Below are positions 668 through 20,075 of a stretch of DNA of 64,000 nucleotides, one piece after another; position 1 is the stretch's first letter, and every line of letters begins with the position of its first letter. The DNA is from Thermoanaerobacterales bacterium 50_218 (GTDB taxonomy: Bacteria; Bacillota; DSM-12270; Thermacetogeniales; Thermacetogeniaceae), in assembly GCA_001508855.1 (NCBI GenBank), contig LGFL01000004.1, positions 1-64,000 of the forward strand. Direction: 5' to 3'. The position numbers and the translations under genes were made by a program. The notes below the pieces were generated by a model. That model saw nothing but the letters and a program-made list of their open reading frames with translations, made no database searches and had not been told where the DNA came from.

Positions 668-761
668 TCCAGAAGGAGTTCCCTTAAGGAATGACGAATA
701 TTCTGAGATTGCGTGCCCTTAATTTTTTGGGAAAGAAATCATCAAATGGAGGGGAATGTGT

Positions 762-1925
762 ATGTACAGAAAAGTTGTTGCTCTGCTGGCTATTATTGCA
801 CTTTTTGCGGGTATTGTGGCTGGATGTGGAGGTAGTGGAACTTCAGATGAGGTAGCGAAAGAACCTGATGTTGTTCGAATTGGTGTTTTTGAACCAATGA
901 CTGGTCTTTCTGCAGCTGGAGGACAGATGACTGTTGAAGGGATCAAGCTTGCAAATAAGCTGTACCCAGAAGTTTTAGGTAAAAAGGTTCAGTTATTCAT
1001 TGTTGACAACAAAAGTGACAAAGCCGAGGCCAAAAACGCGGTTACCCGTCTGATTGAGAGAGACAAAGTGGTTGCGATTATTGGTTCTTATGGTAGTTCT
1101 CTTTCAATGGCTGCAGGAGATACTGTAAAAAAAGCAAGAGTTCCAGCAGTTGGATGTTCTCCAACAAATCCATTGGTTACCTTGAACAATGACTACTATT
1201 TCAGGGTATGTTTTATTGATCCCTTCCAGGGAACAGTAATGGCGAAATATGCCTACAATGATTTAAATGCGAGAACAGCTGCTATTATCCGCAATGTTTC
1301 ACAGGATTATTCTGTGGGGCTCTGCAAATATTTTGAGGATGCCTTTAAAAAGCTAACAGGTGACCCAAATTGTATTGTGGCTACCCTGGACTATCAAGAT
1401 GGGACACAGGACTTTACTGCCCAATTGACCACTGTGCAACAGAAAGAACCAGATGTCATTTTTGCTCCTGGTAACTACGGAGATGTTGCTTTGCTGATCA
1501 AGCAGGCACGTGAATTGGGGCTAAAACAACCTTTCCTCGGTGGAGATACTCTCGAGGCACCAGAATTTATTCAAGTGGGTGGTCAGGCAGTTGAAGGAGT
1601 AGTTTTTTCTACCCACTACAGCAAAGATGCTCCTGTTACTGAAATGTCTAAAAAATTTGTCGAAGCGTATACTCAAGAATACCATAAGGAACCCAATGCT
1701 TTTGCAGCTCTTGGGTTTGATGCTTATTTAGTCATTCTTGATGCGATTAAGCGTGCTGGAAGCATAGATAGTGAAAAGATTCGTGATGCTCTTGCAGAAA
1801 CAAAAGATTTTGAGGGCGCTACTGGAATTATCACCTTTGATGAGAACGGAGATGCTAACAAGAGCGCAGTAATCTTGGTAGTGAAAAATGGGGAATTCAA
1901 ATACCTAACCACAGTTAATCCCTGA
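762..1925 (+). CDS. livK: Liv-type ABC transporter substrate-binding lipoprotein
   Basis: This is the extracellular binding protein of a branched-chain amino acid type (HAAT family) importer, 387 residues. A lipoprotein signal ends in the lipobox VAGC with Cys22 as lipid anchor. The mature part reads as a Peripla_BP_6 fold, with an RIGVFEPMTG opening strand and a VVAIIGSYGSS segment typical of this family. The ATG at 762 is preferred over the one at 756, because GGAGGGG at 748-754 then lies at normal distance. The four other importer genes follow in order. The family also binds amides, urea, aromatic acids and other acids, so the true ligand is open; the neighbouring RuBisCO-like cluster makes a non-amino-acid ligand possible. 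Confidence 0.92.
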   Translation: MYRKVVALLAIIALFAGIVAGCGGSGTSDEVAKEPDVVRIGVFEPMTGLSAAGGQMTVEGIKLANKLYPEVLGKKVQLFIVDNKSDKAEAKNAVTRLIERDKVVAIIGSYGSSLSMAAGDTVKKARVPAVGCSPTNPLVTLNNDYYFRVCFIDPFQGTVMAKYAYNDLNARTAAIIRNVSQDYSVGLCKYFEDAFKKLTGDPNCIVATLDYQDGTQDFTAQLTTVQQKEPDVIFAPGNYGDVALLIKQARELGLKQPFLGGDTLEAPEFIQVGGQAVEGVVFSTHYSKDAPVTEMSKKFVEAYTQEYHKEPNAFAALGFDAYLVILDAIKRAGSIDSEKIRDALAETKDFEGATGIITFDENGDANKSAVILVVKNGEFKYLTTVNP

Positions 1926-1951
1926 TCGCAAATAAATTTTAAAACAATCAT

Positions 1952-1980
1952 GCCTTCCCCCTGTCAGTCAGGGGGGAGGC
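1952..1980 (+). other. Intercistronic hairpin between livK and livH
   Basis: GCCTTCCCCC, a 9-base loop and GGGGGGAGGC form a 10-bp stem with one G-T wobble. No long T run follows, so it looks like a partial terminator or 3' stabiliser. That fits the usual need for more binding protein than membrane subunits. Confidence 0.6.
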
Positions 1981-2010
1981 GCTTGTTTCAAACAGGACAG
2001 GAGGAAGCGT

Positions 2011-2904
2011 ATGACTCTTACCGAGTTCTTACAACATATGGCTAACGGTGTTTCTCTTGGAAGTCTTTATGCTTTGATTGCTATTGGATATACGATGGTT
2101 TACGGAATCCTGCGCCTGATTAACTTTGCTCATGGCGATATATTTATGATTGCAGCATATGTGGCTTTTTTTGGAATTGGAATTTTTTCTCTTCCATGGT
2201 GGGTCTCTTTTATTCTGGCAGTTGTTATTACTGCTTTCATTGGTGCCTTGATCGAAAGAGCTGGGTATCGTCCCCTGCGTAACTCGCCGCGCATCTCTGT
2301 GTTGATTTCGGCGATTGGTATTTCGTTTCTTTTAGAAAATTTAGGACTTGTCCTTTTTGGAGGTCGTCCCAAGGCTTTTTATCGGCCACCAGTTTTTGCC
2401 CAAGTCTTTTTGGTGAAAGGTGTTGCTGTTCAGGTATTGACCATCTATATCCCACTAGTTACAATTGTATTGCTCGCGTGCTTACTTTATCTGGTTCATA
2501 AAACCAAAACCGGCATGGCCATGCGTGCTTGTTCTCGGGATTTTGAAACCGCAAGATTAATGGCTATCAATGTTGACCGTATCGTTTCGGTAACATTTGT
2601 TGTCGGTTCGGCACTTGCTGCTGTAGGGGGAATAATGTGGTCGTTGAAATTTCCGCAGATTCATCCCCTTATGGGCATTTTTCCAGGTTTAAAGTGTTTC
2701 ATTGCTGCAGTTTTAGGTGGTATTGGGAATATTACGGGAGCAGTTATTGGAGGCTTTATCCTCGGGATTCTTGAAATTATGTTAGTAGCATTCTTTCCTG
2801 CTCTTTCTGGTTATCGGGATGCTTTTGCTTTTGTTATTTTAATTCTCATTCTTCTGTTCAGACCAACAGGGATCTTGGGAGAAACGATGGCAGAGAAGGT
2901 GTAG
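2011..2904 (+). CDS. livH: Liv-type ABC transporter permease, LivH family
   Basis: First membrane subunit of the importer, 297 residues, the usual length. It is almost wholly hydrophobic with about eight spans. Family hallmarks include the early MVYGILRLINFAHGD segment, the central KTGMAMRAC segment that forms the coupling region, and a glycine-rich GGIGNITGAVIGG segment near the C-terminus. GAGGAAG precedes the ATG. The stop codon is one base before livM, so the two permeases are probably translated together and pair in the membrane. Confidence 0.95.
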   Translation: MTLTEFLQHMANGVSLGSLYALIAIGYTMVYGILRLINFAHGDIFMIAAYVAFFGIGIFSLPWWVSFILAVVITAFIGALIERAGYRPLRNSPRISVLISAIGISFLLENLGLVLFGGRPKAFYRPPVFAQVFLVKGVAVQVLTIYIPLVTIVLLACLLYLVHKTKTGMAMRACSRDFETARLMAINVDRIVSVTFVVGSALAAVGGIMWSLKFPQIHPLMGIFPGLKCFIAAVLGGIGNITGAVIGGFILGILEIMLVAFFPALSGYRDAFAFVILILILLFRPTGILGETMAEKV

Positions 2905-2905
2905 T

Positions 2906-3994
2906 ATGAAGCAGACAACGAAATCACTTTTGACATTGGCTACTGTTATCCTTTTTTTCACTGTTCTTTACTTTGCCAATAAGTATCTTGACCCGTACAA
3001 GTTAATAATTCTTACTCTTTGTGGAATTAATGTAGTCTTGGGACTTTCGATGAACCTGATTAATGGTTTTACGGGTCAGTTTTCTTTAGGGCACGCTGGT
3101 TTTATGGCTGTTGGGGCCTATACTGCAGCACTTCTTACTATGCCTCCTGAAGTAAAAGAGATGAACTGGTTTGCAGTTCCTATGTGGCCTCCTCTTCATG
3201 ATCTTTGCTGGCCATTTTTTCTGGCGGTGATCATGGGTGGGTTAGTTGCTGCCTTTTTTGGGTTCTTGATCGGTATTCCTGTTTTGCGATTGCGAGGCGA
3301 CTATCTGGCTATTGCTACTCTTGGTTTTGCCGAGGTCATTCGGGTAGTAATTATCAATGTCAAGCCTCTAACTAATGGTGCTCTTGGTTTAAAAGCGATT
3401 CCTGTTGTCACAGATGTATTCTGGGCCTGGGGTGCTGCTGTGCTCACGATTTTCCTGATGATAAGGCTGATTAATTCGAGCTATGGCCTTGCCTTGAAGT
3501 CGATAAACTCTGATGAAATTGCCGCCGAGGCAATGGGTGTAAATCTTTTTTATCATAAAATGCTTTCTTTTGTTCTCTCTTCTTTTTTGGCTGGGGTTGG
3601 GGGTGCGCTTTTAGGAGGGCTTTTGGGAACTGTTGACCCCACAATGTTTACTTTTTTGATGACGTTTAACATTTTGTTGATTGTTGTGTTGGGTGGTTTG
3701 GGTAGCATTACTGGCTCCGTCATTGGGGCCGTTTTCGTGACTATTCTCATGGAATGGTTGCGTATTGTGGAGTCACCAGTTGACCTCGGATTCGTGCAAA
3801 TTCCGGGGATTCCTGGTATGCGGATGGTCATCTTTTCTTTCCTGCTCGTTCTCGTCATCATTTTTTACCAGCAAGGATTATTGGGCAGACGGGAACTCAC
3901 ATGGGAAGGAATATTTAATCTTTTGAGACAAGTTCAAGAAAGGTTTAAAAAAAGAAACAAAGACAAATCTGTACCCAGTAGTGAGGTGGGTTGA
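2906..3994 (+). CDS. livM: Liv-type ABC transporter permease, LivM family
   Basis: Second membrane subunit, 362 residues. It starts one base after livH. It carries the LivM hallmarks GLSMNLINGFTGQFSLGHAGF near the N-terminus (residues about 45-65), a GDYLAIATLGFAE segment, and a GGLGSITGSVIGA segment near the end. About nine to ten spans are visible, and the tail is basic and probably cytoplasmic. The stop is directly followed by the GTG of livG. It should form the translocation pore with LivH. Confidence 0.95.
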   Translation: MKQTTKSLLTLATVILFFTVLYFANKYLDPYKLIILTLCGINVVLGLSMNLINGFTGQFSLGHAGFMAVGAYTAALLTMPPEVKEMNWFAVPMWPPLHDLCWPFFLAVIMGGLVAAFFGFLIGIPVLRLRGDYLAIATLGFAEVIRVVIINVKPLTNGALGLKAIPVVTDVFWAWGAAVLTIFLMIRLINSSYGLALKSINSDEIAAEAMGVNLFYHKMLSFVLSSFLAGVGGALLGGLLGTVDPTMFTFLMTFNILLIVVLGGLGSITGSVIGAVFVTILMEWLRIVESPVDLGFVQIPGIPGMRMVIFSFLLVLVIIFYQQGLLGRRELTWEGIFNLLRQVQERFKKRNKDKSVPSSEVG

Positions 3995-4774
3995 GTGGCC
4001 CCTTTATTTCAGGCAAACAATCTTGTGATGCAATTTGGAGGTTTAACTGCAGTCAACAAGGTGTCGATGAGCATTGAAAAAGGAGAAATAGTGGGCTTGA
4101 TTGGACCTAATGGTGCCGGCAAAACCACGGTTTTTAACATAATTACAGGGGTTTACCGTCCCACCAGTGGTTCTTTAATTTTTAATGGGAGAAATATTAC
4201 GGGGTTGAGACCGGACCAGGTAGCAAAATTGGGGATTGCTCGAACTTTCCAAAATATCCGCCTTTTTCGAGACCTTACTGTTCAGGAAAATGTAGAAATT
4301 GGCTATCATCTGCGAATTCATAGTGGTCCTTGGAGAGCTGTCCTGAGGACACCTAAATATGTTGCTGAAGAAAAGATGATTAAAGAACGCGCTAGTCAGT
4401 TGCTTGCCCAAGTGGGCTTAGTAGAGTACAGGCATGAAAAAGCAGGTGCACTTCCATATGGTGCCCAACGTCGCCTAGAGATTGCAAGGGCTTTAGCAAC
4501 GAATCCACGCTTGCTTTTGCTAGATGAACCTGCAGCAGGAATGAATCCCAATGAGGGTCTGGAGTTAATGGCATTTTTGCGTGAGATTAGGAAGCAATTT
4601 GATCTTACTATTCTCCTTATTGAACATGATATGCGGGTTGTGATGGGCATTTGTGAGCGAATTTACGTTCTTGATTACGGAACTCTGATCGCTGAAGGTA
4701 CGCCTGAGCAGATTCAGAAAAATCCAAAGGTTATCCAAGCTTACCTTGGGGTTGATGATAGTGTTAGAGATTAG
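3995..4774 (+). CDS. livG: Liv-type ABC transporter ATP-binding protein, LivG family
   Basis: ATPase subunit of 259 residues starting with GTG directly at the livM stop. Walker A is GPNGAGKTT (about 37-45) and Walker B is [12 protein letters not shown]. The signature motif has the LivG-specific form [15 protein letters not shown] instead of LSGGQ. The switch histidine is in LLIEHDM. The C-terminal [19 protein letters not shown] is typical of the family. It would energise transport together with LivF. Confidence 0.96.
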
Positions 4775-5483
4775 GAATTTGCATGTTCATTACGGTGGTA
4801 TTCATGCTTTGAAAGGGATCACCCTGACTGTTCCCGAAGGAAGGATTGTATCTTTAATTGGAGCAAATGGTGCTGGAAAGAGTACAACATTACGTGCTAT
4901 CTGTGGACTGGTGAAGCCGACTTCAGGAGAAATAACATATAATGGCAAATCACTTGTAGGGCTACCAACCCAAGACATTATTCTTGAAGGAATCACGATG
5001 GTTCCGGAAGGGAGGCGTGTTTTTCCTAACCTGACAGTATATGAAAATCTTTTGCTAGGGGCGTATGCTCGGAATGATGTTCAAGGAATTAGTAGTGATA
5101 TTAAACGGGTGTTTGAACTTTTCCCGCGGCTTGAAGAACGCCAAAATCAGCTTGCAGGAACACTCTCAGGGGGAGAACAGCAAATGCTGGCACTGGGGCG
5201 TGCTCTCATGTCACGACCCAAATTATTAATGATGGATGAGCCTTCGTTAGGTCTTGCTCCCCTGGTTGTCAAAAATATTTTTGAGAAAATTAAACAAATT
5301 CATGATGAGGGAACAACCATTCTGCTTATTGAGCAAAACGCCAAAGCGGCACTTGAGCTATCAGATTATGCGTATGTTTTGGAAACTGGGAAGATTGTTC
5401 TTGAAGGAACTGGCAGGGAACTCATCTCTAATAGCGAGGTCAAGAAGGCGTATCTTGGGGAAGAGATTATCGGGGACTTTTAG
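4755..5483 (+). CDS. livF: Liv-type ABC transporter ATP-binding protein, LivF family
   Basis: Second ATPase subunit, about 242 residues. Walker A is GANGAGKST, the signature is LSGGEQQMLALGRAL and Walker B is LLMMDEPSLGLAP, followed by TILLIEQN. The chosen ATG at 4755 overlaps the end of livG by 20 bases and lies behind a GGGG stretch. The TTG at 4746 and GTG at 4761 are alternatives, and the GTG would give the usual short N-terminus. It is the last gene of the transporter; the glpP-like gene begins about 75 bases later on the same strand and may be co-transcribed. Confidence 0.95.
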   Translation: MIVLEIRNLHVHYGGIHALKGITLTVPEGRIVSLIGANGAGKSTTLRAICGLVKPTSGEITYNGKSLVGLPTQDIILEGITMVPEGRRVFPNLTVYENLLLGAYARNDVQGISSDIKRVFELFPRLEERQNQLAGTLSGGEQQMLALGRALMSRPKLLMMDEPSLGLAPLVVKNIFEKIKQIHDEGTTILLIEQNAKAALELSDYAYVLETGKIVLEGTGRELISNSEVKKAYLGEEIIGDF

Positions 5484-5557
5484 ATGAAGAAGGCATGGGA
5501 CTTGTTTTTTCATTATTTGTGATGCTAAGTGATGTTTTTGGGGAAGGAGAAATTAGG

Positions 5558-6154
5558 GTGTCTCTAAAAGAGAGGTTTTTAGAAGCTCTTCGGTTTTATC
5601 CGATAATTCCTTCACTCCGACGGGAAGAAGCGTTTTCACGTGTGCTGGCGAGCAGGGCGTGTGTTGTTCTGATCTCCTCGGGAACAATTTTTAATTTGGA
5701 GGAATATAGCCGGGAACTGCGCAGGCACGGAAAGTTGGTGCTGGTTCACGTTGACCTCATCGGAGGGCTTGGAAGGGATCAGACAGCAGTCAGGTTCTTG
5801 AAGGAGAAGGCACAGGTGCATGGGATTGTCACTCCCAATAGCCAGCTCATCATTACAGGGCGTAAAGAAGGGTTACTGACGGTACACAGGTTGTTTGCTC
5901 ATGACTCCCCTTCCATTGAGACAGGGATCAGGGTGCTGAAACAGTCGAAACCAGATTTTATTGAAGTTTTGCCAGGTGTAGCTTTAGCGCAGGTGGTGGG
6001 TTACCTCCGGGAGCATTTTCAGCAGCCGCTCATTGCTGCAGGTCTGGTGAAAACTGTTGAAGATGTCCGGAAGATTCTGCAGGCTGGAGCAGTTGCGGTA
6101 GATACGAGCGCGGAAAATTTGTGGAACCTCAATATTTCTGAGAAGGAATTTTGA
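5558..6154 (+). CDS. glpP: GlpP-family antiterminator regulatory protein
   Basis: A 198-residue protein of the G3P_antiterm family. In Bacillus GlpP binds glycerol-3-phosphate and leader RNA and prevents termination before glpD. Seen here: an opening SLKERFLEALRFYPIIPSLR, then VVLISSGTIFNL, LVHVDLIGGLGRD, and the GIVTPNSQLI, FIEVLPG and PLIAAGLV strands of the TIM-barrel-like fold. GTG at 5558 is chosen because GGAAGGAG (5542-5549) lies 8 bases upstream and the family starts at this point; an in-frame ATG at 5495 has no good site. No glycerol genes are nearby. Instead the next gene, beyond a terminator-bearing leader, is the RuBisCO-like protein, which suggests that the target and ligand differ from the classical ones. 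Confidence 0.88.
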   Translation: MSLKERFLEALRFYPIIPSLRREEAFSRVLASRACVVLISSGTIFNLEEYSRELRRHGKLVLVHVDLIGGLGRDQTAVRFLKEKAQVHGIVTPNSQLIITGRKEGLLTVHRLFAHDSPSIETGIRVLKQSKPDFIEVLPGVALAQVVGYLREHFQQPLIAAGLVKTVEDVRKILQAGAVAVDTSAENLWNLNISEKEF

Positions 6155-6311: not shown

Positions 6312-6390
6312 AAAATTCTAGAATCACAAGTTTTTAAATAATTTTTAAATCTGTATCTGAATATTTCCTGGGACGAGAGACGAGAGTAAG

Positions 6391-6449
6391 TCCCACTCCG
6401 TTTGCTGACTGTGAATGGGTTGGCAGGGGTGGGATTTTTGCATTTTTTT
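6391..6449 (+). terminator. Terminator-like hairpin in the RuBisCO-like gene leader
   Basis: TCCCACTCC (6391-6399) pairs with GGGGTGGGA (6426-6434) in a 9-bp stem with one wobble and a 26-base loop. TTTTTGCATTTTTTT follows. It lies between the glpP-like gene and the RuBisCO-like gene, 155 bases before the latter, so it could end the upstream transcript or be the regulated attenuator of the downstream operon. Confidence 0.65.
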
Positions 6450-6603: not shown

Positions 6604-7920
6604 ATGTCAGCCCTAGATATGCTTGCTATTCCCGAGCAGATTGAAGATACGGGTGGTTATGTCATCGCAACATATTTTTTAGAAACCGGTGTTAATGTCG
6701 ATATCACTGCTAAAATTAGCGCCATTGCTGTGGAACAGACTACGGGCACATGGCTTCCAGTTCCAGAAGAAACACCAGAACTGCGAGAAAAACATGTTGC
6801 AAAGGTCGTCGGGATTTATGAGGTTCCCGCCCACGAGTTTGAGGTCCCTGCGGACTGCAATAAAAGGCAGTTCGTTTTTCAGCTTGCATTTCCAGCAGTA
6901 AACTTCGGCCCTCAGATTCCGATGCTTTTAAGCACTGTTATCGGAAACATTTCCATGTCTGGTAAGCTGAAGCTTCTGGATCTCAAGTTTCCCAAGGAAT
7001 TTCTTGAGGAATTTAAAGGACCGAAGTTCGGGATCCAGGGGGTTCGGGAAATTTTGGGGATTCCGGAACGCCCGTTGCTGAACAATATGATCAAGCCTTG
7101 CACAGGTTATCCTCCCGAAGTTGGGGTAAAGCTGTTTTCTAAAGCTGTACAAGGTGGTGTGGATATTGTCAAGGATGATGAACTGATTGCTGATGCATCT
7201 TTCTGCCCGATGGTCGAAAGAGTCAAGCTATATATGGCTGAAGCAAAGCGGATCTACGAAGAGACCGGACACAAGGTTCTTTATACAGTGAATATTACTG
7301 ACCGCGCTGATAAGCTTAAGGATAATGCCAAACGTGCGCTTGATGCCGGAGCCAATGCGCTGATGATTAACTATCTGACTGCTGGCATCTCTAATCTGCG
7401 CGCCCTTGCTGAAGATCCGGATATTAATGTACCGATTCTTGCTCACCTCGATTTTGCAGGAACAATGTATGAGTCGCCTTTTTCAGGAATGAGTTCTCAT
7501 CTCATTTTGGGCAAACTGGCACGGCTGGCAGGTGCAGATATCGTTGTTTATCCAAGCCCTTACGGTAAATTTCCCTTCCTCAGAGAACGTTACCTGCAGA
7601 TTGCCCACCACCTGAAGAGCAATTGGGGTCATTTCAAACCTGTTTTCCCAATGCCTGGTGGAGGTGTTATGCCTGCAGTTGTTCCTGCTATCATAAAGGA
7701 TCTGGGCAATGACTGCATCCTTGGTGCTGGAGGCGCGATTCACGGTCACCCGATGGGACCCGTAGCTGGAGCGAAGGCAATGAGACAGGCGATTGATGCG
7801 GCGATGCAAGGGATACCGTTAACTGAGGCTGCAAAGGAGCATCCTGAGTTGAAGGCAGCGATAGATGCCTGGGGTCTCCTCGAGGAAGAGGAGCGGGGCA
7901 TCTTTGAAATCAAGCAGTAA
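6604..7920 (+). CDS. RuBisCO-like protein (form IV)
   Basis: A 438-residue member of the RuBisCO large-chain superfamily. Lys164 (IKP) matches the general base Lys175 of RuBisCO. Exactly 26 residues on, KDDE (190-193) matches the carbamylated Lys201 with Asp203/Glu204, so the metal site is kept. The partner of Lys177 is Cys166 and the flanking loops differ strongly, so it is not a CO2-fixing RuBisCO. A PYGKF lysine (322) lies near the loop-6 position, and GAGGAIHGHPMGP occupies the second phosphate loop. Known form IV proteins enolise or decarboxylate sugar-like phosphates, as in methionine salvage (MtnW) or apionate breakdown. The neighbours fit neither pathway. AGGAGGGAG precedes the ATG. 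It heads a run of five same-strand genes. Confidence 0.93.
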   Translation: MSALDMLAIPEQIEDTGGYVIATYFLETGVNVDITAKISAIAVEQTTGTWLPVPEETPELREKHVAKVVGIYEVPAHEFEVPADCNKRQFVFQLAFPAVNFGPQIPMLLSTVIGNISMSGKLKLLDLKFPKEFLEEFKGPKFGIQGVREILGIPERPLLNNMIKPCTGYPPEVGVKLFSKAVQGGVDIVKDDELIADASFCPMVERVKLYMAEAKRIYEETGHKVLYTVNITDRADKLKDNAKRALDAGANALMINYLTAGISNLRALAEDPDINVPILAHLDFAGTMYESPFSGMSSHLILGKLARLAGADIVVYPSPYGKFPFLRERYLQIAHHLKSNWGHFKPVFPMPGGGVMPAVVPAIIKDLGNDCILGAGGAIHGHPMGPVAGAKAMRQAIDAAMQGIPLTEAAKEHPELKAAIDAWGLLEEEERGIFEIKQ

Positions 7921-7952
7921 AACTTTCAAAAAAGTTCAAAGGGGGTTTTAAA

Positions 7953-8798
7953 GTGGCTAAACAGTACACCAGGGAAGAAGTTCTGGCTCGGTTGAAAAAG
8001 ACTATCAGTGAGGGGAAACCAGTGATTATTGCCGGTGCCGGCACCGGAATCTCCGGAAAATTTGCTGAACGTGGTGGTGCTGACCTGATCGGGGTCTACA
8101 ATTCTGGCCTCTATCGGATGGATGGTAACGGGTCGCTTGCAGGTTTGATGCCTTATGGAAATGCCAATGAAATCGTGATCCAACTGGCGCACCGCGTGTT
8201 TCCGCAGATTAAAGAAGCACCGATGATTGCCGGAATCTGCGGCACTGACCCTACCAGAGAAATGAAGCCTTACCTGAAGTATCTTAAAGAACTAGGATTT
8301 TCTGGGGTTATGAACTTTCCCACTGTAGGTCTCATTGATGGAAGGTTCCGTAAGGAACTGGAGGATACCGGAATGGGGTACAGCAAGGAAATTGAGGCCT
8401 TGAAACTTGCTTCTGAGCTAGGGTTTTTCACTCTCGGCTACGCCTTTAATGTGGAAGAGGCGAGAATGGTTGGAGAAGCCAAGCTGGATGTTCTGATTTG
8501 CCATATGGGACTCACCAGAGGTGGAGCTATTGGCTCAAAGTATGCTGAGGGTATGTCATTGGAGAAGGCTGCAGAACTTATTAATGCGATGACAAAAGCA
8601 GCCCGAGAAGAGCATCCGGAGATCCTCATTTTTGCTCATGGTGGTCCGATTTCTTATCCTGAAGATACTGCCTACATTTATGAGCATACTGAGGCTGTTG
8701 GCTTCCTAGGTGCTTCCAGCATTGAGCGCATTCCGGTAGAGAAGCCGCTGCAGGAAGCAGTCCAGAAGTTTAAGAGCATTCCCATCAAGACTAAGTGA
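7953..8798 (+). CDS. TIM-barrel 'PEP hydrolase-like' protein, copy 1
   Basis: A 281-residue protein of the TIM-br_sig_trns / PEP-hydrolase-like family, the same fold as the C-terminal half of plant Tm-1. Visible family features are VIIAGAGTGISGKFAERGG near the N-terminus, GGADLIGVYNSG, a LMPYGNAN segment, PMIAGICGTDP, GFSGVMNFPTVG, and HGGPI with a SSIERIPVE segment at the end. GTG follows a GGGGG stretch, 32 bases after the RuBisCO-like gene, so the two are surely co-transcribed. No reaction is firmly established for the family; a C-C lyase or phosphoenolpyruvate-type chemistry is only implied by the fold. A second, diverged copy lies at 11142. Confidence 0.9.
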   Translation: MAKQYTREEVLARLKKTISEGKPVIIAGAGTGISGKFAERGGADLIGVYNSGLYRMDGNGSLAGLMPYGNANEIVIQLAHRVFPQIKEAPMIAGICGTDPTREMKPYLKYLKELGFSGVMNFPTVGLIDGRFRKELEDTGMGYSKEIEALKLASELGFFTLGYAFNVEEARMVGEAKLDVLICHMGLTRGGAIGSKYAEGMSLEKAAELINAMTKAAREEHPEILIFAHGGPISYPEDTAYIYEHTEAVGFLGASSIERIPVEKPLQEAVQKFKSIPIKTK

Positions 8799-8818
8799 TT
8801 TATTAGAGCAAGTTGCTT

Positions 8819-8866
8819 GTCGAGTAGAGGAGAAGTCCCTCTATTTCAGAAAAGCTCGACCGTTTT
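8819..8866 (+). terminator. Nested hairpin after the first TIM-barrel gene
   Basis: GTCGAG (8819-8824) pairs with CTCGAC (8855-8860), and inside it TAGAGG (8825-8830) pairs with CCTCTA (8838-8843). CGTTTTAATT follows. It could be a weak terminator or processing site between the TIM-barrel gene and the ComB-like gene; the T run is short. Confidence 0.45.
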
Positions 8867-8988
8867 AATTAACGAATACCCCCGCAGTATGATTGATGCA
8901 TTATCTTATTACTTTGATGTCAAGGATCGAGGCAAATTTACTGGGTGTTTTTGGTAGATGAAGGTTGTTTAGTGAGGAAGCCTGGGAT

Positions 8989-9732
8989 GTGAGTGAATTG
9001 AACGTTGATGTTGCACTGACACCGCAAGAGGTTCGTGCTGACTGGGAAGAGAAAGTTTGCATTGTTGTTGATGTGCTGCGCGCCAGTTCTACGATTGTAA
9101 TGCTTTTAGCTAAAGGTTGCCGCAGAGTCTATACTGTGAGAGCAGTTACCGAGGCTCGCAGGCTGGCGCGCAGCCAGGGCTTCTTGATTGCTGGAGAACG
9201 CGGTGGATTAACTTTGTCAGGGTTTGATTTTGGGAATTCACCTTGTGAAGTCGAAGCTATAGATGTAGCTGGAAAAGAGGTAGTGCTGACAACAACAAAT
9301 GGGACAAGAGTTGTTCAAAAGGTGGCGGGGGCGCGGGCAGTACTTGCTGGTTGCTTCCTCAATGCCAAAAGCTGCTGTGAGAGCGCCCTCGCGCTTGCTT
9401 CTCAATACAGAAGCAGTATTGGAATTGTTTGTGCTGGTGAGAAAAGCCGCTTCGTCCTTGATGATGCTCTCTGTGCTGGTTTCCTGGTTTCAACGATCCT
9501 TGAACTCAGGAACTTCGATATACCTGTTGTGATTTCAGATGCTGCTCGGGCAACACTTCAGCTCTTTAATAGTTACCCCGACATCGTTTCTGGTTTTAAA
9601 GATTCCAGCAGTGGCAAGCGTTTAATGGAAATCGGTCGTCTCGATGATCTCGTTTATTGTAGCAGGGTAAATGTTACAGATTGTGTTCCTATCCTCGTCA
9701 AAAACTCTTGTTGCTGGTTCGAGAAGCTGTAG
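8989..9732 (+). CDS. ComB-family phosphatase (2-phosphosulfolactate phosphatase-like)
   Basis: A 247-residue member of the ComB family, whose founder removes phosphate from 2-phospho-3-sulfolactate in coenzyme M synthesis. Seen: VVDVLRASSTI near the N-terminus, AGERGGLTLSGFDFGNSP, and TTTNGTRVV, which form the active site in this family. No other coenzyme M or sulfolactate genes (ComA, ComC) are nearby. Its place between TIM-barrel and UPF0261 genes suggests that it acts on a phosphorylated acid in the same pathway. GTG at 8989 is chosen because GAGGAAG lies 9 bases upstream; a TTG at 8965 has a poor site. Confidence 0.88.
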   Translation: MSELNVDVALTPQEVRADWEEKVCIVVDVLRASSTIVMLLAKGCRRVYTVRAVTEARRLARSQGFLIAGERGGLTLSGFDFGNSPCEVEAIDVAGKEVVLTTTNGTRVVQKVAGARAVLAGCFLNAKSCCESALALASQYRSSIGIVCAGEKSRFVLDDALCAGFLVSTILELRNFDIPVVISDAARATLQLFNSYPDIVSGFKDSSSGKRLMEIGRLDDLVYCSRVNVTDCVPILVKNSCCWFEKL

Positions 9733-9766
9733 CCTTTATTTAATACTGATATAAGGGGGTTTTGGA

Positions 9767-11110
9767 GTGGCAGCGAAGCCGAAGATTGTGGTTGCTGGGA
9801 TTCTTGATACCAAAGGCAATGAAATCAAGTACCTGGCTGAACGGGTTGCGGCTGCTGGTGGTGAGCCCACTATTCTGGAATTAAGTGTCGGACGTGAAGT
9901 TGGGTGGGCAGACATCAGTATTGGTGAGGTTATTGCCGAGACTGGGCATACAAAAGAACAAGTTTTTTCTCTCGACCGTGGAAAAGCTGCTGATATCATT
10001 ATCGAAGGTGCAATCAAGGTCGTCAGGAAACTTTATAATACTGGGAAGCTTGATGGCATCATCGCCTTTGGCGGTTCAATGGGGACGAGTATCGCCACCA
10101 GAGCAATGCAGTCACTGCCAGTCGGTGTTCCCAAATTCATGCTGACCACAATGGCATCTGGTGATGTCAGTCCTTATGTTGGAACAAAAGACATTTGCTT
10201 GATGTATCCTATTGCCGAGGCTGGTCTCAATAAGGTGACGAGAAGGATTCTCAATAATGCTGCAGCCGCGATTGTTGGGATGGCCCAGGCTCCGGAACTT
10301 GGGGAAGCTGCTGACAAGCCGCTGATCGGCTGCATGATGTTCGGAGTGACCACACCTTGTGTCCTTAGGGCGGCAAAGTATTTTGAGGACCGGGGTTATG
10401 ATGTAATCATCAACCATGCTGTTGGTAGCGGAGGCCGCTCGATGGAGGAGTTGATCAGGGATGGTTTTATTGTTGGGATGCTGGATATAACCACTCACGA
10501 AATCGGAGACTACCTTCTTGGCGGAGTCCTCAGTGCAGGCCCTGATCGGTTAACTGCTGCTGGTGAAAGGGGGATCCCCCAGGTTATTGCCCCTGGAGGG
10601 CTTGACCTGATCAATTTTGGGCCCAAGGATACTGTTCCTGAAAAGTTCCTCAAGGAAACCCACCTTCCTGGACGTGGTCTTTACATCCACAACCCTACAG
10701 TGACTTGTGTTGGTGTGTCTGCAGAAGAGGCTTACCTTATTGGAGAGCACATAGCCGGCAAACTCAATGCTGCTAAGGGGCCAACGGTACTTTGTGTTCC
10801 TATGAGAGGATGGGGTGCTTGCGATCTTCCTGCTCCAAACAAGGATCTGGGATGGGCCGGGCCAGGGCCGGGGCCTGTTTGGGCTGCTGATCCTGAAAAA
10901 CCCGAATGGTCATTAAGAGCTGGGCGTTTCGTTGAGGCCCTGCGCCAAAATATCGATAAAAATAAGGAAAACCTGGAAGTGCTGATCGTTGATAAACACC
11001 TAAATGAGCCCGAGTTTGCCGACTTAATGGCTGAGTTGCTGGAAGAAATGCTTAATGGTAAGTGGCAGAAAGGGAGCCATACGGATCTGCCATATGTCAC
11101 CTCTCTCTAA
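9767..11110 (+). CDS. UPF0261 / Tm-1-like ATP-binding domain protein
   Basis: A 447-residue UPF0261 protein, equal to the N-terminal half of the plant virus-resistance protein Tm-1. Seen: opening KIVVAGILDTKGNEI, a FGGSMGTSIATRAM nucleotide-binding-like loop, LTTMASGDVSPYVGTKDI, and a VPMRGWGACDLP stretch near residue 345. GTG start after AAGGGGG. In bacteria this family is regularly beside the TIM-barrel family seen on both sides here, and in plants the two are fused, so physical or catalytic partnership is likely. No bacterial substrate is known to me. It follows ComB by 34 bases and precedes the second TIM-barrel gene by 31. Confidence 0.9.
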   Translation: MAAKPKIVVAGILDTKGNEIKYLAERVAAAGGEPTILELSVGREVGWADISIGEVIAETGHTKEQVFSLDRGKAADIIIEGAIKVVRKLYNTGKLDGIIAFGGSMGTSIATRAMQSLPVGVPKFMLTTMASGDVSPYVGTKDICLMYPIAEAGLNKVTRRILNNAAAAIVGMAQAPELGEAADKPLIGCMMFGVTTPCVLRAAKYFEDRGYDVIINHAVGSGGRSMEELIRDGFIVGMLDITTHEIGDYLLGGVLSAGPDRLTAAGERGIPQVIAPGGLDLINFGPKDTVPEKFLKETHLPGRGLYIHNPTVTCVGVSAEEAYLIGEHIAGKLNAAKGPTVLCVPMRGWGACDLPAPNKDLGWAGPGPGPVWAADPEKPEWSLRAGRFVEALRQNIDKNKENLEVLIVDKHLNEPEFADLMAELLEEMLNGKWQKGSHTDLPYVTSL

Positions 11111-11141
11111 TTCTCCTGCGAACTAAAGGAGGTGTCATTTA

Positions 11142-11975
11142 TTGGCAAAGCACTATACCCGCCAAGAAGTTCGTCAGCGTCTTCAGGCTCAGATCCAACA
11201 GCGAAAATCAATCCTGATGTTTGGTGCAGGGACAGGACTTACTGCAAAGTGTGCCGAATTGGGGGGCGCTGACCTCATCGGTGTTTATTCAACAGCGAAG
11301 TTCCGGATGATGGGAAGGCCGTCTCTCTTGGCATGGTTGCCCTATGGGGATGCTAATGCTTGTGTGAAGGAAATGGCCAGGGAAATCCTTCCCGCAGTTA
11401 AGTTTACCCCTTGCATCGCTGGAGTTGGAGCTCATGACCCTGGCGTCGACCTGGAGTTACTGCTTGATGAGTTGCTGGAACTCGGTTTCTCAGGGGTAAC
11501 CAATGAACCGTTTGTGGGAATCTATGGAAAGGAGTTTGCCGAACAACTTGAAGCTGCAGGGCTTGGTTTTTCGCGGGAGGTTGCCCTGATCGAACTTGCT
11601 CATAAAAAGGATATCTTTACAGTTGCCTGGGCATTCACCCCGGAAGAGGCGCGGACTATGGCCGAGGCTGGGGCAGATGTTATTGGGGCGATTATTGGGG
11701 TCACTGTTGGGGGTTTAACTGGAGCGAAAAAGTCTTTGACTCTTGAGGAAGCCACAAGACAGGTTCAGGAGATCTGTGAGGCAGCCAGGAAGGTAAACCC
11801 GGAAATTCTTGTGCTTACTCATGGTGGTCCCTTCAAAGATGTGGAGACTGCCCAGTATTCAATTACTAATTCTGATGCTGTCGGCTATGCCGCGGGTTCC
11901 AGTGGAGAACGAATACCTGTGGAGGCAGCAGTTATCGACCTGACGAAAAGGTATAAAGAGATCAAGGTCAGGTAG
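11142..11975 (+). CDS. TIM-barrel 'PEP hydrolase-like' protein, copy 2
   Basis: A 277-residue paralogue of the protein at 7953. The two share the opening MAK.YTR.EV, the GAGTG motif, GGADLIGVY, the LPYGDAN segment, LGFSGV and a final GERIPVE segment. They differ in the middle: CIAGVGAHDP against MIAGICGTDP, and VGGLTGAKKSL against RGGAIGSKYAE. TTG start after a very good AAAGGAGGTG site. It closes the cluster and is followed by a terminator. Two kept copies around one UPF0261 gene suggest either a hetero-oligomer or two related substrates. Confidence 0.9.
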   Translation: MAKHYTRQEVRQRLQAQIQQRKSILMFGAGTGLTAKCAELGGADLIGVYSTAKFRMMGRPSLLAWLPYGDANACVKEMAREILPAVKFTPCIAGVGAHDPGVDLELLLDELLELGFSGVTNEPFVGIYGKEFAEQLEAAGLGFSREVALIELAHKKDIFTVAWAFTPEEARTMAEAGADVIGAIIGVTVGGLTGAKKSLTLEEATRQVQEICEAARKVNPEILVLTHGGPFKDVETAQYSITNSDAVGYAAGSSGERIPVEAAVIDLTKRYKEIKVR

Positions 11976-12036: not shown

Positions 12037-12065
12037 GCCGGATGGTTGTCCGGTCTTTTTTTTTT
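12037..12065 (+). terminator. Terminator of the RuBisCO-like gene cluster
   Basis: CCGGA, loop TGGTTG, TCCGG, then a run of nearly unbroken T (12054-12065). It marks the 3' end of the 6604-11975 gene run. The rest of the gap up to 12261 shows nothing convincing. Confidence 0.85.
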
Positions 12066-12261: not shown

Positions 12262-13194
12262 TTGAGTAGAGCGAGAGGGGAACCAGGTGTGGATTACTGG
12301 AAGCTACTGCGGCCGAAGCAGTGGGTGAAAAATGTTTTCATTTTTGCTCCCCTTATCTATTCCAGAAACTTTTTTAATCCTTCCCTGCTGGGACTGGCTT
12401 TTGCTGCTTTTATTTTTTTCTCCTTGCTCAGCAGTGGTGTCTATGTTTTTAATGATATCTGTGACCGGGAGCGGGATCGCAGCCACCCTCTTAAATGCCG
12501 CCGACCCGTGGCTTCTGGCCGCGTCTCTGTGCGTGTTGCTTTTGCCTATGCCGCGTTTTTATGCCTTCTGTCACTTTTGGGGTCTTTCGTGATCAGACCC
12601 GCATTGGGGATGGTTGCTTTTTGTTATTTCTTCTTGGTAGTTTTCTATTCTCTTTACCTCAAGAAACAGGTAATCATCGATGTGATGTCAATTGCTGCCG
12701 GGTTTATCCTGCGGGTGGTTGCCGGTGCAGTTGCTGTTGATGTAGAGGTTTCTCCCTGGCTCCTGATCTGCACGGGGTTTCTCGCTCTTTTCCTCGCCCT
12801 CGGGAAGAGGCGCCACGAACTCCATCTGTTAGAGGTCACAGCTTCAGAACACCGGCCTTCGCTTGAAAATTATTCCTTTGCCTTCATCGACCAGATGGTG
12901 GCTGTGGCCGCTTCAGGGACAATCCTTTCCTACTCACTTTACACCTTCCTTGCTCCTACATCACAGGGACTGATGGTCACCATTCCTTTCGTGGTCTACG
13001 CCCTCCTCCGCTACCTTCACATCGTTTACCACCAGAACTTGGGAGGTGAACCTGAAGAAATCCTTCTTCACGATCGCCCTTTTCAAGTAGCAGTGGTCTT
13101 GTGGCTGGTCACCAGCCTTCTGGTCCTCTATTTTGGAAGTATTCCAGGAGTCCCTGTTTTTGCCGCAATTTTTTCTTTTTGCCCTGGTGCTTAA
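12262..13194 (+). CDS. UbiA-family decaprenyl-phosphate phosphoribosyltransferase-like protein
   Basis: A 310-residue membrane prenyltransferase with about eight to nine spans. It carries the family opening LLRPKQWVKN, the first Asp motif NDICDRERD followed by HPLKCRRPVASG, and the second Asp segment VIIDVMSIAAGFILRVVAG. This pattern is that of decaprenyl-phosphate 5-phosphoribose synthase (Rv3806c type) rather than of quinone-pathway UbiA. It would attach phosphoribose from PRPP to a polyprenyl phosphate at the inner membrane face. TTG start after AGGGGAA. It opens a four-gene run with features of a lipid-linked sugar pathway. Confidence 0.85.
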   Translation: MSRARGEPGVDYWKLLRPKQWVKNVFIFAPLIYSRNFFNPSLLGLAFAAFIFFSLLSSGVYVFNDICDRERDRSHPLKCRRPVASGRVSVRVAFAYAAFLCLLSLLGSFVIRPALGMVAFCYFFLVVFYSLYLKKQVIIDVMSIAAGFILRVVAGAVAVDVEVSPWLLICTGFLALFLALGKRRHELHLLEVTASEHRPSLENYSFAFIDQMVAVAASGTILSYSLYTFLAPTSQGLMVTIPFVVYALLRYLHIVYHQNLGGEPEEILLHDRPFQVAVVLWLVTSLLVLYFGSIPGVPVFAAIFSFCPGA

Positions 13195-16927: not shown

Positions 16928-17194
16928 GTGCCGATAGTGGAGACCACAATCAACGCCCAGACGAAGCACTACCTTAGGGAAGAGCAACTAGCGCGGATGT
17001 TGCTCTCAATGGAGTTTGACGAAAAATACATGGTACAGGTGTTCAACTTCTTCACAGATGTTCCTCTGCAGGATGTCGAAAGGTTCATGGCTAAGTACGG
17101 GATCTCTTGTTCTGCCCTGAGGGCCTATTACGAGAAGTACGTCAAGGATTACTACCGCAATCCCGGGCTTGAGGAGATGCTTTCCGTTGCGTAA
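16928..17194 (+). CDS. Small protein paired with a nucleotidyltransferase
   Basis: An 88-residue, mainly helical protein with no family I recognise. It has charged segments KHYLREEQLARMLLSMEF and DVERFMAKYGISCSALRAYY. GTG at 16928 follows AGGGGG (16914-16919); ATG at 16898 is an alternative, but it overlaps a TATGAT that may be the promoter -10. The next gene starts inside its 3' end, so the two are translationally coupled. By position it could be the antitoxin-like or regulatory partner of the AbiEii-like protein, though no DNA-binding motif is evident. Confidence 0.6.
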   Translation: MPIVETTINAQTKHYLREEQLARMLLSMEFDEKYMVQVFNFFTDVPLQDVERFMAKYGISCSALRAYYEKYVKDYYRNPGLEEMLSVA

Positions 17195-17870
17195 GGAACT
17201 GTTTAAAAAAGCCCTGTTTGTTCTTGAGTGTTCGAGAATTCCTGAAGGTGAGTGGGCCATAGGTGGGGGAGTTGCTTTGGAGCTTCGCTTCCACCACAGG
17301 GAAAGCAGGGATGTCGATGTTTTCGTCACGAACGCTCAGTACCTGCTCCTGATCACTCCTCGCCTCAACCGGGAGGTTTTTTCTGCGGTCGCGGACTATA
17401 CCGAGTCTTCCAACTTCCTCAAGCTAAAGTTCCAGGAGGGAGAGGTAGATTTCATTGTCGCTCCCCGCCTCACGGAAAACCCCTGTGAGACCTTGAAACT
17501 GTGGGGAAAGAAGGTCAACATCGAATCTCCCGAGGAAGTCGTGCTTAAAAAGCTGTTCTACCGCGCCGAGGCGCTGAAGGCGAGAGATGTTGTCGATGTT
17601 GCTGCTGTATATGAGAACCGGAGGGATGTCTTGCTGCGCTTCGCTCACCTTCTGGGTCCGAGGATTGAGACTATCTCGCGCAGGTGGGACAAGCTCAAGG
17701 AATTCTACGAAAAAGAAGCTGAAGGTCTGGAAGTGCTTGACACCGACCTTCTCAAAAGAGCTCCTCTCCTTTTTGAGGAGTTCCTTCGGGAGGTCAGGAA
17801 AAGGATCGCATTGGAAGAGAAACTGCTGAAACAAGGGCGATCCTGCCGGTCTAATAAGACGCAGCCGTAA
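17187..17870 (+). CDS. AbiEii-like nucleotidyltransferase
   Basis: About 227 residues of the nucleotidyl transferase AbiEii/AbiGii toxin-like family. The N-terminal motif IGGGVALELR...ESRDVDVF supplies the GG pair (residues about 26-28) and the metal-binding Asp42 and Asp44. A later VDFIVAP supplies the third acidic residue. A conserved SPEEVVLKKLFYR...ARDVVDV segment follows. TTG at 17187 is 10 bases behind GAGGAG and overlaps the upstream stop by 8 bases. In type IV toxin systems the family adds nucleotides to targets, but many members of this length are uncharacterised and may not be toxic. Confidence 0.78.
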   Translation: MRKELFKKALFVLECSRIPEGEWAIGGGVALELRFHHRESRDVDVFVTNAQYLLLITPRLNREVFSAVADYTESSNFLKLKFQEGEVDFIVAPRLTENPCETLKLWGKKVNIESPEEVVLKKLFYRAEALKARDVVDVAAVYENRRDVLLRFAHLLGPRIETISRRWDKLKEFYEKEAEGLEVLDTDLLKRAPLLFEEFLREVRKRIALEEKLLKQGRSCRSNKTQP

Positions 17871-18018: not shown

Positions 18019-19362
18019 CTACATCAAAAGTCGGTGCAGGGTGGTGGTTAGCAGGCAAGCTGTTGCTGCTACCAGGGTGGGAACCACTACTCCCAGCAGC
18101 GTCCACTTGAGGCTTCCGGTTTCTCTGTAAATTGTCCAGATTGTGGTGCTACAGGGAAAGTGGAGCAGTGAGAAGAGCATCATGTTGAAAGCGGTCAAAG
18201 GGGTCCAACAGTGGGTGTGCAGGATTTCGCTGATTGTTTTTAGTCCTTCAAGATCTACCATGGTTCTACTGGAGAGGTAACCCATCAAAAGGATCGGCAG
18301 CACGATTTCGTTGGCTGGAAGTCCCAGGATGAAAGCCATCAAGATGAAGCCGTCGAGTCCTAGAAGCTGACCAATGGGTTGGAGGAGTTGGGCTCCTGAC
18401 AAAAGCAGGCTGGTGTTGCCGAAGCTTGTGTTGGCCAGGAGCCAGGTGATTGCTCCTGCAGGGGCAGCGATGGTGATCGCCCTACCAAGCACAACTAGGG
18501 TGCGGTCGATCAGAGAGCGCACCAGTACCTGTTTCCAGTGGGGCAGGCGGTAGGGTGGTAGTTCCAGAATGAAAAAAGAAGGAACTCCTTTTAGAAAGGT
18601 TTTGGAGAAGCCCCAAGAGATCAGAAAAGTGACGGCAATTCCTATGACCACCATTCCTGCCACGAGGGCTGCCGAGGCAAGGGAGTGGAGCCTGGGACTG
18701 GTGATTCCCATTGTCGCCAGTCTGGCGAGGAGCACGAGAGTGGGTAACCTTCCGTTACAAGGTGTAAAGACGTTCGTGAGGATAGAGATAAGCCTCTCCC
18801 GCGGAGATTCAATGATCCTGCAGGAGACCACACCAACGGCGTTGCAGCCAAAGCCCATACTCATCGTCAGTGCCTGTTTTCCCTGTGTGCCTGCCTTTTT
18901 GAAAAAGCAGTCGAGGTTAAAGGCGGCGCGGGGTAGGTATCCAATGTCCTCGAGAAAAGTGAAGAGAGGAAAGAAGATTGCCATTGGGGGCAGCATCACA
19001 GCGATCACCCATGTCGTCGTCCTGTAGACTCCTGAGAGCAAAAGACCGTGAACCCACTGAGGAACCCCGATCTGGATGCAAAAAGCTGTAAGCCGTACTT
19101 CTAGTCCAGAGAAGGCTTTTCCCAGGAGAGCCGAAGGGATGTTTGCCCCGACGAGGGTAATCCAGAAGATCAGACCAAGGAGAATGAACATCACCGGGAA
19201 TCCCCAAATAGGTGAAGTCAGGATATCATCAATTTTCTTTTCCCAATCTGGCCTTTCTCGAGGTGATGACTTGACTACCTTTGAGGTGAGGGCTTCAGCC
19301 TGCTGAAAGATTGCTGCTGTGATTTCCTCTTTCACCTTTTGGTTGTTGAGGAAAACCGTCAA
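18019..19362 (-). CDS. feoB: FeoB membrane domain encoded as a separate gene
   Basis: A 447-residue membrane protein matching the transport half of ferrous iron transporter FeoB, with two Gate-type segments. Seen: PIWGFPVMFILLGLIFW, FPLFTFLEDIGYLPRAAFNLD, GKQALTMSMGFGCNAVGV, then FTPCNGRLPTLVLLA, the usual FeoB sequences with their conserved Cys residues. The GTPase domain is absent but is encoded by the gene directly upstream. The TTG start overlaps that gene's stop by 4 bases (TTGA), so the two halves are made together and should assemble. No feoA is visible beside it. Confidence 0.9.
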   Translation of the reverse strand: MTVFLNNQKVKEEITAAIFQQAEALTSKVVKSSPRERPDWEKKIDDILTSPIWGFPVMFILLGLIFWITLVGANIPSALLGKAFSGLEVRLTAFCIQIGVPQWVHGLLLSGVYRTTTWVIAVMLPPMAIFFPLFTFLEDIGYLPRAAFNLDCFFKKAGTQGKQALTMSMGFGCNAVGVVSCRIIESPRERLISILTNVFTPCNGRLPTLVLLARLATMGITSPRLHSLASAALVAGMVVIGIAVTFLISWGFSKTFLKGVPSFFILELPPYRLPHWKQVLVRSLIDRTLVVLGRAITIAAPAGAITWLLANTSFGNTSLLLSGAQLLQPIGQLLGLDGFILMAFILGLPANEIVLPILLMGYLSSRTMVDLEGLKTISEILHTHCWTPLTAFNMMLFSLLHFPCSTTIWTIYRETGSLKWTLLGVVVPTLVAATACLLTTTLHRLLM

Positions 19363-20075
19363 GGTCTTCTCTCCTTCATTTTGAGTTTCTCGAAAAGCTT
19401 CCGGTCACCGTCGAGTAAGCGCAGGACTAGCCACCTGTTTAAGTTTGGGGGTGCTTGATTTTTTAGTTCAGCTTCCAGCCGTCTAATCGTAATTTCCAGT
19501 TCCGGGCTGTAGTTAACTTTCTTCGGTTTGGGAGTAAAAGCCCCTCGGAGAATTTCGTCGACTGCCTCCTTGAGTTCCTGTAGTCCTATCCCCTGGCGGG
19601 CTGCTGTGGTGACCACTCTGACCCCCAGTTCTTGTTCCAGTTTGCTGGTATTGATCATGATTCCCTTCCTTCTTGCCTCATCAATGAAATTCAGACAGAT
19701 GACCAGGCTGGGAGTGATTTCGCTTATCTGGAAGAAAAGGGCGAGGTTGCGCTCCAGGCAAGTGGAGTCAACGACAACCACGGTTACCTCCGGTTGCTGG
19801 AAACAGAGAAAGTCTCTAGCAATTTCCTCTTCTGGTGATGATGTGAGGAGAGAGTAAATTCCTGGTAGATCGATGAGGGTGATTGTTTTTCCTCGATACC
19901 TGTATTCTCCCTTTGCAAGCACTACTGTTTTTCCTGTCCAGTTCCCGGTATGTTGCCTGAGACCAGTAAGGGAGTTGAATATGGTGCTCTTACCGGTGTT
20001 GGGATTACCGGCAAGGGCGATGAGCGGTCTTTTCAGAGATTGATTCGTGTTTTGTTTTCTCCATGGTCTGGGCAT
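19359..20075 (-). CDS. feoB: FeoB GTPase domain encoded as a separate gene
   Basis: A 238-residue soluble G protein. G1 is GNPNTGKST, G2 includes HTGNWTGKTV, G3 is DLPGIYSL and G4 is NFID, as in the cytosolic domain of FeoB. A helical tail of about 60 residues would link to the membrane in normal FeoB. ATG is preceded by AGAGGAG. The gene ends in a 4-base overlap with the membrane-domain gene. This is a clean split at the domain border, not a frameshift inside a domain, so it looks like a real two-subunit FeoB. Confidence 0.9.
   Translation of the reverse strand: MPRPWRKQNTNQSLKRPLIALAGNPNTGKSTIFNSLTGLRQHTGNWTGKTVVLAKGEYRYRGKTITLIDLPGIYSLLTSSPEEEIARDFLCFQQPEVTVVVVDSTCLERNLALFFQISEITPSLVICLNFIDEARRKGIMINTSKLEQELGVRVVTTAARQGIGLQELKEAVDEILRGAFTPKPKKVNYSPELEITIRRLEAELKNQAPPNLNRWLVLRLLDGDRKLFEKLKMKERRP

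Follow-up and report, generated by a model that had tools for sequence, protein, structure and literature searches.

A 64,000-nucleotide stretch of Thermoanaerobacterales bacterium 50_218 (contig LGFL01000004.1, positions 1 to 64,000; hereafter the window) carries five consecutive genes for a form IV RuBisCO-like protein (RLP), a TIM-barrel protein (TIM1), a ComB-family phosphatase, a UPF0261 protein and a second TIM-barrel protein (TIM2). We found that these genes are preceded directly by glpP, encoding a GlpP-type antiterminator protein, and by a leader with an antiterminator/terminator pair like that of a canonical glp operon. The operon is probably an undescribed breakdown route for a phosphorylated sugar or polyol. 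In particular, our preferred reading, to which we assign a probability of about 0.4, is an inducible pathway for a polyol-derived monophosphorylated keto-sugar or ketose, on which the RLP, then ComB and then UPF0261 together with the TIM proteins would act in turn. The operon, its regulator and the RNA target are solid; the sequence of reactions is what we infer from them.

An earlier reading made from the DNA letters alone (the sequence-only reading) had described five same-strand genes of recognisable families, and their open reading frames (ORFs) and Pfam domains confirmed order and coordinates (Table 1). The genes are separated by 32, 166, 34 and 31 bases. A clear purine-rich ribosome-binding site precedes four of the five starts, and a weaker one the TTG start of ComB, which may be misplaced. 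While the five genes had been taken as the whole unit, the transcription unit starts upstream of the RLP gene: glpP and the antitermination leader, both missed before, belong to it. A terminator-like site behind tim2 probably closes the operon.

Conservation was surveyed over 80 RLP loci from named genomes. The order rlp-tim1-comB-upf0261-tim2 recurs in Syntrophomonadaceae; the same block without comB is found in Formimonas, Desulfoscipio and rumen Bacillota, and a Caldisericota locus holds the same families in rearranged order. In the Caldisericota operon (L031, 13675-17484) three further genes are interspersed with those for the RLP, UPF0261, TIM and ComB; they encode a DUF1097 membrane protein, a formamidase/acetamidase-family protein and a zinc alcohol dehydrogenase. 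The conservation of gene order is far beyond chance. A neighbourhood search, as the sequence-only reading had proposed, thus showed that the order is not unique to the window genome but is shared by Syntrophomonadaceae and other Clostridia, and the conserved gene set supports its idea of a conserved, undescribed pathway.

The families also occur together across genomes. Within the family of the window genome we compared 20 genomes, 8 with and 12 without a close RLP. ComB was present in 8/8 of the former and 0/12 of the latter (Fisher-tested). UPF0261 and GlpP were present in seven of the eight RLP-bearing genomes, the eighth (G007) being cut by a contig end, and neither UPF0261 nor an above-cut-off GlpP was found in the other 12. 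Among 399 Bacillota genomes, UPF0261 was encoded in 16 of the 25 with an RLP compared to 51 of the 374 others (Fisher p = 5e-8), and in those 16 genomes the two genes are close neighbours. UPF0261 furthermore adjoins RLPs of 43-49% identity (loci L144, L145, L146 and L172). Across operons (L069, L071, L064 and L147 compared with the window) TIM1 is about 80% identical, while the RLPs are 55-60% identical; either a replacement of the RLP or its faster evolution relative to the cassette may lie behind this.

The window glpP is the sole GlpP gene of the genome. The 449-base gap between it and the RLP gene contains a conserved RNA element (about 6370-6445), in which an antiterminator hairpin with the purine-rich GlpP-type site GGGACnAGAGAnGAGAGTnAGTCCC competes with an intrinsic terminator. 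A search of the 94%-complete genome that allowed up to three mismatches gave this site a single time, and shuffles of the window did not contain it. The element is conserved in 11 distinct leaders. In these, the middle arm has two possible partners: with the 5' arm it can form the antiterminator (-6 to -9 kcal/mol), and with the 3' arm, which a U run follows, the terminator (-24 to -32 kcal/mol). Paired, compensatory changes are seen in leaders L003, L018 and L124; the most divergent element is that of L011. When base pairs of the antiterminator helix were first counted from an alignment, the signal was weak (a single covarying pair, reached by 39 of 500 shuffles), such that the case for a leader switch rests on the 11 folded elements and their competing hairpins rather than on that count. 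No known Rfam riboswitch family was found in the first 20 kb of the window.

The GlpP of Bacillus subtilis is a glycerol-3-phosphate-binding protein that disrupts terminators in leaders (PMC9604022). As in the B. subtilis-type control of glpFK and glpD, GlpP here adjoins its operon, and both components of such antitermination are present, a PF04309 protein and a leader with site and terminator. In a control glp operon (Cytobacillus, L187) the glpF and glpD leaders share the plan, with the same double AGAGA motif ahead of the terminator. In contrast to the B. subtilis case, the target is the RLP operon, and the GlpP belongs to a subfamily with altered conserved residues. No FGGY kinase was found in the family genomes holding the operon, the window genome included, and these genomes therefore lack the glycerol kinase GlpK. 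GlpP is dedicated to the RLP operon, and the RNA switch suggests that the operon's signal is a sugar- or polyol-phosphate.

The window RLP matches Pfam RuBisCO_large at 167 bits and carries the KDDE motif of the form IV superfamily. It retains E60, T65, W66, N123, K175, K201, D203, E204, H294 and K334, but has C, L and V at RuBisCO positions K177, R295 and H327; the roles of these positions we take from general knowledge of RuBisCO. The bisphosphate site is thus incomplete, and a CO2-fixing RuBisCO of forms I-III was rejected on this ground. All tabulated sequences of the family share K175-P-C177, N123, K201, D203, E204 and H294 and have lost R295 and H327. With these two residues gone, one phosphate is expected on the substrate, and from its residues the RLP is expected to bind this single phosphate at the P1 site and to carry out enolisation chemistry. 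The window branch retains E60 and K334, which the branch of L144, L145, L146, L148 and L172 has lost together.

In the tree, MtnW, the cupin- or mtnA-linked RLPs, the Photo group and the OiaX/NonPhoto group form separate well-supported clades, while the window RLP falls in the large remaining group near MtnW. Judged by its sequence it is not MtnW, in line with the sequence-only reading, but a K-P-C type form IV protein outside the MtnW, DeepYkr-type, Photo and OiaX groups. The K-P-C family extends over Bacillota, Chloroflexota, Actinomycetota, Caldisericota and archaea. Branching among MtnW, the L112/L150/L151 branch and the remaining RLPs lacks firm resolution; MtnW may have branched from within the K-P-C family. 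In an actinobacterium, a form IV RLP whose function is unknown has been described beside sugar-related genes (PMC7325909). On an Agrobacterium sp. MA01 plasmid (L107, 1-3927) mtnA and split DXS/transketolase-like genes precede a 372-aa RLP; this RLP has H in place of E204 in the alignment and is possibly a further methylthioribulose variant.

ComB matches PF04029 at 240 bits and stays below the NCBIfam equivalog cut-offs. Since no ComA above cut-off was found in the 20 family genomes, a role in coenzyme M or sulfolactate metabolism was rejected. The phosphatase function suggested by the sequence-only reading would fit this absence as well as the strict co-occurrence of ComB with the RLP. The AF2 model of TIM1 (predicted local distance difference test score, pLDDT, 86.7) has 2p10 as best Foldseek match and resembles sugar-phosphate and C-C lyase barrels; TIM2 is 42% identical to TIM1. 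For UPF0261 (pLDDT 88) Foldseek returned 9mpy and Tm-1. A kinase identified by fold was rejected, as beyond UPF0261/Tm-1 structures the search returned only weak matches of GT-B/epimerase type. The closest solved structure, 9mpy (Saro_1862), has acetovanillone bound, in keeping with a ligand that carries a carbonyl group. Our literature search found no paper on Saro_1862, nor one combining an RLP with UPF0261 or with FGGY.

UPF0261 and PF09370 proteins, here encoded adjacently, are the two families fused in plant Tm-1 and adjacent in other bacteria. Compared with such pairs the window has two TIM copies, a UPF0261 C-terminal part that no longer follows the Pfam model beyond residue 355, and the link to an RLP, which is missing beside the Tm-1 pairs seen on plasmids. 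In Thermus and four other genomes a class II aldolase, and not PF09370, accompanies UPF0261, which suggests that the aldolase and PF09370 take the same slot. In genome G163 (contig 11, L181, 5769-8745) a ComB-family gene without an RLP has a second UPF0261-TIM pair as its divergent neighbour.

Most neighbourhoods of distant RLP relatives point to ketose- and polyol-phosphate metabolism, where several neighbour names come from BLAST to few annotated representatives or from first residues rather than from a full profile search. Loci of gut-type Bacillota combine a galactitol-type phosphotransferase system, a dehydrogenase, a SorC regulator, the RLP and a class II aldolase. L148 holds a GlpA-like gene and two FGGY kinases besides the RLP; L146 holds Tpi, TIM, UPF0261, an amidohydrolase, RpiB, transaldolase and transketolase. 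L144 and L172 encode a ribose-type ABC transporter, a lactonase-like metallo-hydrolase, UPF0261, Tpi and a class II aldolase. ADH/SDR dehydrogenases and SorC/DeoR regulators are further neighbours, and in some clades without ComB a PHP-type phosphatase adjoins the RLP. On a Vibrio nigripulchritudo plasmid (L192, 1495-6114) split transketolase genes and genes for an ABC protein and an FGGY kinase accompany an RLP of another clade, likewise a ketose-type context. The nearest described parallel is the Brucella erythritol pathway with the FGGY kinase EryA, GlpD-like EryB, EryC, the regulator EryD, Tpi-like EryH and RpiB-like EryI (PMC5992420). Some distant RLP operons share FGGY, GlpA, SorC/DeoR, Tpi and RpiB genes with it and have an RLP in place of EryC; the window operon, however, lacks kinase, dehydrogenase, Tpi and RpiB genes. 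A phosphorylated ketose, which the sequence-only reading had envisaged as substrate alongside a keto acid, would fit these neighbourhoods.

The pathway we propose would start with a phosphorylated compound of the glycerol-3-phosphate type that binds GlpP. GlpP would then keep the leader antiterminated, so that transcription reads through the terminator hairpin. The RLP would hold the one phosphate of its substrate at the P1 site, and its metal site with carbamate Lys201, Asp203 and Glu204 could form a 2,3-enediolate that is reprotonated elsewhere, making it an isomerase or tautomerase. ComB would remove the phosphate from the product, and UPF0261 with the TIM proteins might then use ATP to split the carbon skeleton, now free of phosphate, by retro-aldol or retro-Claisen chemistry, a cleavage slot that a class II aldolase would take in related operons.

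Several observations weigh against this pathway. All five proteins are without known activity, and the fold likeness of TIM1 beyond 2p10 is generic (template modelling score about 0.5-0.6). At several conserved positions the GlpPs linked to RLPs depart from four other GlpPs, such that the ligand may have changed and may not be glycerol-3-phosphate. Sugar use is not known from the family, and with no FGGY kinase in the window genome the phosphorylated substrate has no evident source. UPF0261 and TIM are also commonly found where there is no RLP, then accompanied by transporters, cupins, oxidoreductases and aminotransferases. Moreover, some RLP relatives have very different neighbours: in Chloroflexota, archaeal and Cryosericum loci the order is FGGY kinase, RLP and saccharopine dehydrogenase-like gene, or a class III aminotransferase adjoins. 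Substrates therefore probably vary across the RLP family. In a bolder form, the K-P-C family would catalyse a reaction new to the RuBisCO superfamily, with a polyol-derived ketose monophosphate as substrate, and would here feed an ATP-dependent, C-C-cleaving UPF0261-TIM system under a GlpP switch with a new ligand; this we regard as doubtful.

The RLP might instead decarboxylate, or transfer the carboxyl group of, a phosphorylated 3-oxo sugar acid, as OiaX (3-oxo-isoapionate-4-phosphate decarboxylase) does, with UPF0261 as the kinase replacing DUF1537 and ComB removing the phosphate. OiaX and the DUF1537-linked RLPs also act in sugar-derived catabolic operons, OiaX keeps K175, K201, D203, E204, H294 and K334, and the window branch retains all of E60, N123 and K334 around the CO2/carboxylate site. 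OiaX-type operons have the same slots, for a ribose-type ABC transporter, a kinase, an RLP and a dehydrogenase; the gene content of L144 and L172 is in keeping with this reading as well, and the window operon holds no other kinase. However, OiaX retains R295, has lost N123 and has D for E60, and lies in a distant clade (100/100); the OiaX model NF042437 scores 187 bits on the window RLP, with a cut-off of 700. Its partners are a DUF1537 kinase, absent from the window operon, and a dehydrogenase, and not ComB, UPF0261 and TIM. Most members of the branch that lost E60 and K334 still retain UPF0261, the UPF0261 fold has no kinase match, and the neighbourhoods are mostly of polyol or sugar rather than sugar-acid type. 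We therefore consider an OiaX-like decarboxylase unlikely. That UPF0261 with TIM and the RLP with ComB serve two separate functions on one GlpP-controlled transcript would agree with the many genomes that have the former pair alone, with the second pair in G163, and with the partly separate histories that the identities of TIM1 and RLP suggest. This is rather improbable, as UPF0261 stands beside RLPs in several deep RLP branches, which is hard to explain without a shared pathway.

A role in methylthioadenosine/5'-deoxyadenosine salvage is less probable still. MtnW/YkrW (2,3-diketo-5-methylthiopentyl-1-phosphate enolase) is the nearest solved relative, with the form IV fold, 40% identity, the carbamate lysine, the metal site, the same loss of R295 and H327 and hence one phosphate, and a separate phosphatase, MtnX, that follows. 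PRK09549 (MtnW) lies just above its cut-off (416 versus 409 bits); TIGR03332, however, is far below (370 versus 514). MtnW forms a 100/100 clade without the window RLP and has K, G and S at the N123, E60 and K334 positions, the lysine presumably being catalytic (K98 of the Geobacillus enzyme), and C177 also distinguishes the window RLP. The R. rubrum-type (DeepYkr) enzyme is a 5-methylthioribulose-1-phosphate 1,3-isomerase (PMC5893883). It resembles our proposal in its proton transfers on a ketose monophosphate, but its cupin-linked kind likewise forms a separate 100/100 clade, represented by one long-branched sequence (L191) with its kin, R. rubrum itself being outside the tree. Beside the window RLP we found no mtnK, mtnA, mtnB, mtnX, mtnD, mtnP or methylsulfurylase-type cupin, and its surroundings are GlpP control and UPF0261/TIM partners. 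The sequence-only reading had stated that partners of methionine salvage and apionate breakdown are missing; this holds at the operon, but mtnA lies elsewhere in the genome (C115:17437-18420). It is unlinked to the RLP and present in 17 of the 20 family genomes with or without an RLP. Tree, residues and missing linkage led us to reject salvage, whether as MtnW or as isomerase. Overall, the sequence-only interpretation was partly supported.

Table 1. Features of the operon and its upstream region (window coordinates).
Feature	Position	Strand	Length	Basis and remarks
Liv-type ABC transporter, SBP-LivH-LivM-LivG-LivF	756-5483	+		Pfam; substrate-binding protein, 2 permeases, 2 ATPases
glpP	5495-6154	+		GlpP-type glycerol-3-phosphate-responsive antiterminator protein, Pfam PF04309
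RNA antiterminator hairpin	6370-6394	+		conserved purine-rich GlpP-type site GGGACnAGAGAnGAGAGTnAGTCCC, exact match
Competing intrinsic terminator hairpin and U run	6389-6437	+		RNA fold z = -4.6
RLP gene	6604-7920	+	438 aa	Pfam RuBisCO_large, NCBIfam, active-site table, tree
TIM1	7953-8798	+	281 aa	Pfam PEP_hydrolase (PF09370); homologue of plant Tm-1 C-terminal half
ComB-family (2-phosphosulfolactate phosphatase-like) phosphatase	8965-9732	+	255 aa	Pfam 2-ph_phosp (PF04029)
UPF0261, Tm-1-type ATP-binding protein	9767-11110	+	447 aa	Pfam UPF0261 N and C domains
TIM2	11142-11975	+	277 aa	Pfam PEP_hydrolase (PF09370), second copy
Likely end-of-operon terminator	12037-12063	+		7-pair stem, then CTTTTTTTTT

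The Liv-type transporter genes end 11 bases before glpP. They adjoin the operon in the window genome only, and as they are not adjacent in relatives their membership in the operon is uncertain. Behind the operon follow a UbiA protein resembling decaprenyl-phosphate phosphoribosyltransferase (DPPR synthase; 12262-13194) and, further on, a DUF362 protein and an ArnF-like small membrane protein. An AbiEii-type nucleotidyltransferase-like ORF lies at 17169-17870, and on the minus strand (18019-20075) FeoB is encoded by two ORFs, one for the N-terminal GTPase part and the other for the C-terminal membrane part.

RuBisCO-like proteins are known to catalyse only a few reactions, and here five enzymes come with a dedicated regulator and its RNA target, such that substrate classes can be screened quickly. 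The possible branching of MtnW among these RLPs bears on the origin of the methionine-salvage enolase. The UPF0261/TIM step, if solved, would explain the protein families that compose plant Tm-1, and if the bolder form of the pathway is true, this virus-resistance protein would gain an ancestral enzymatic function.

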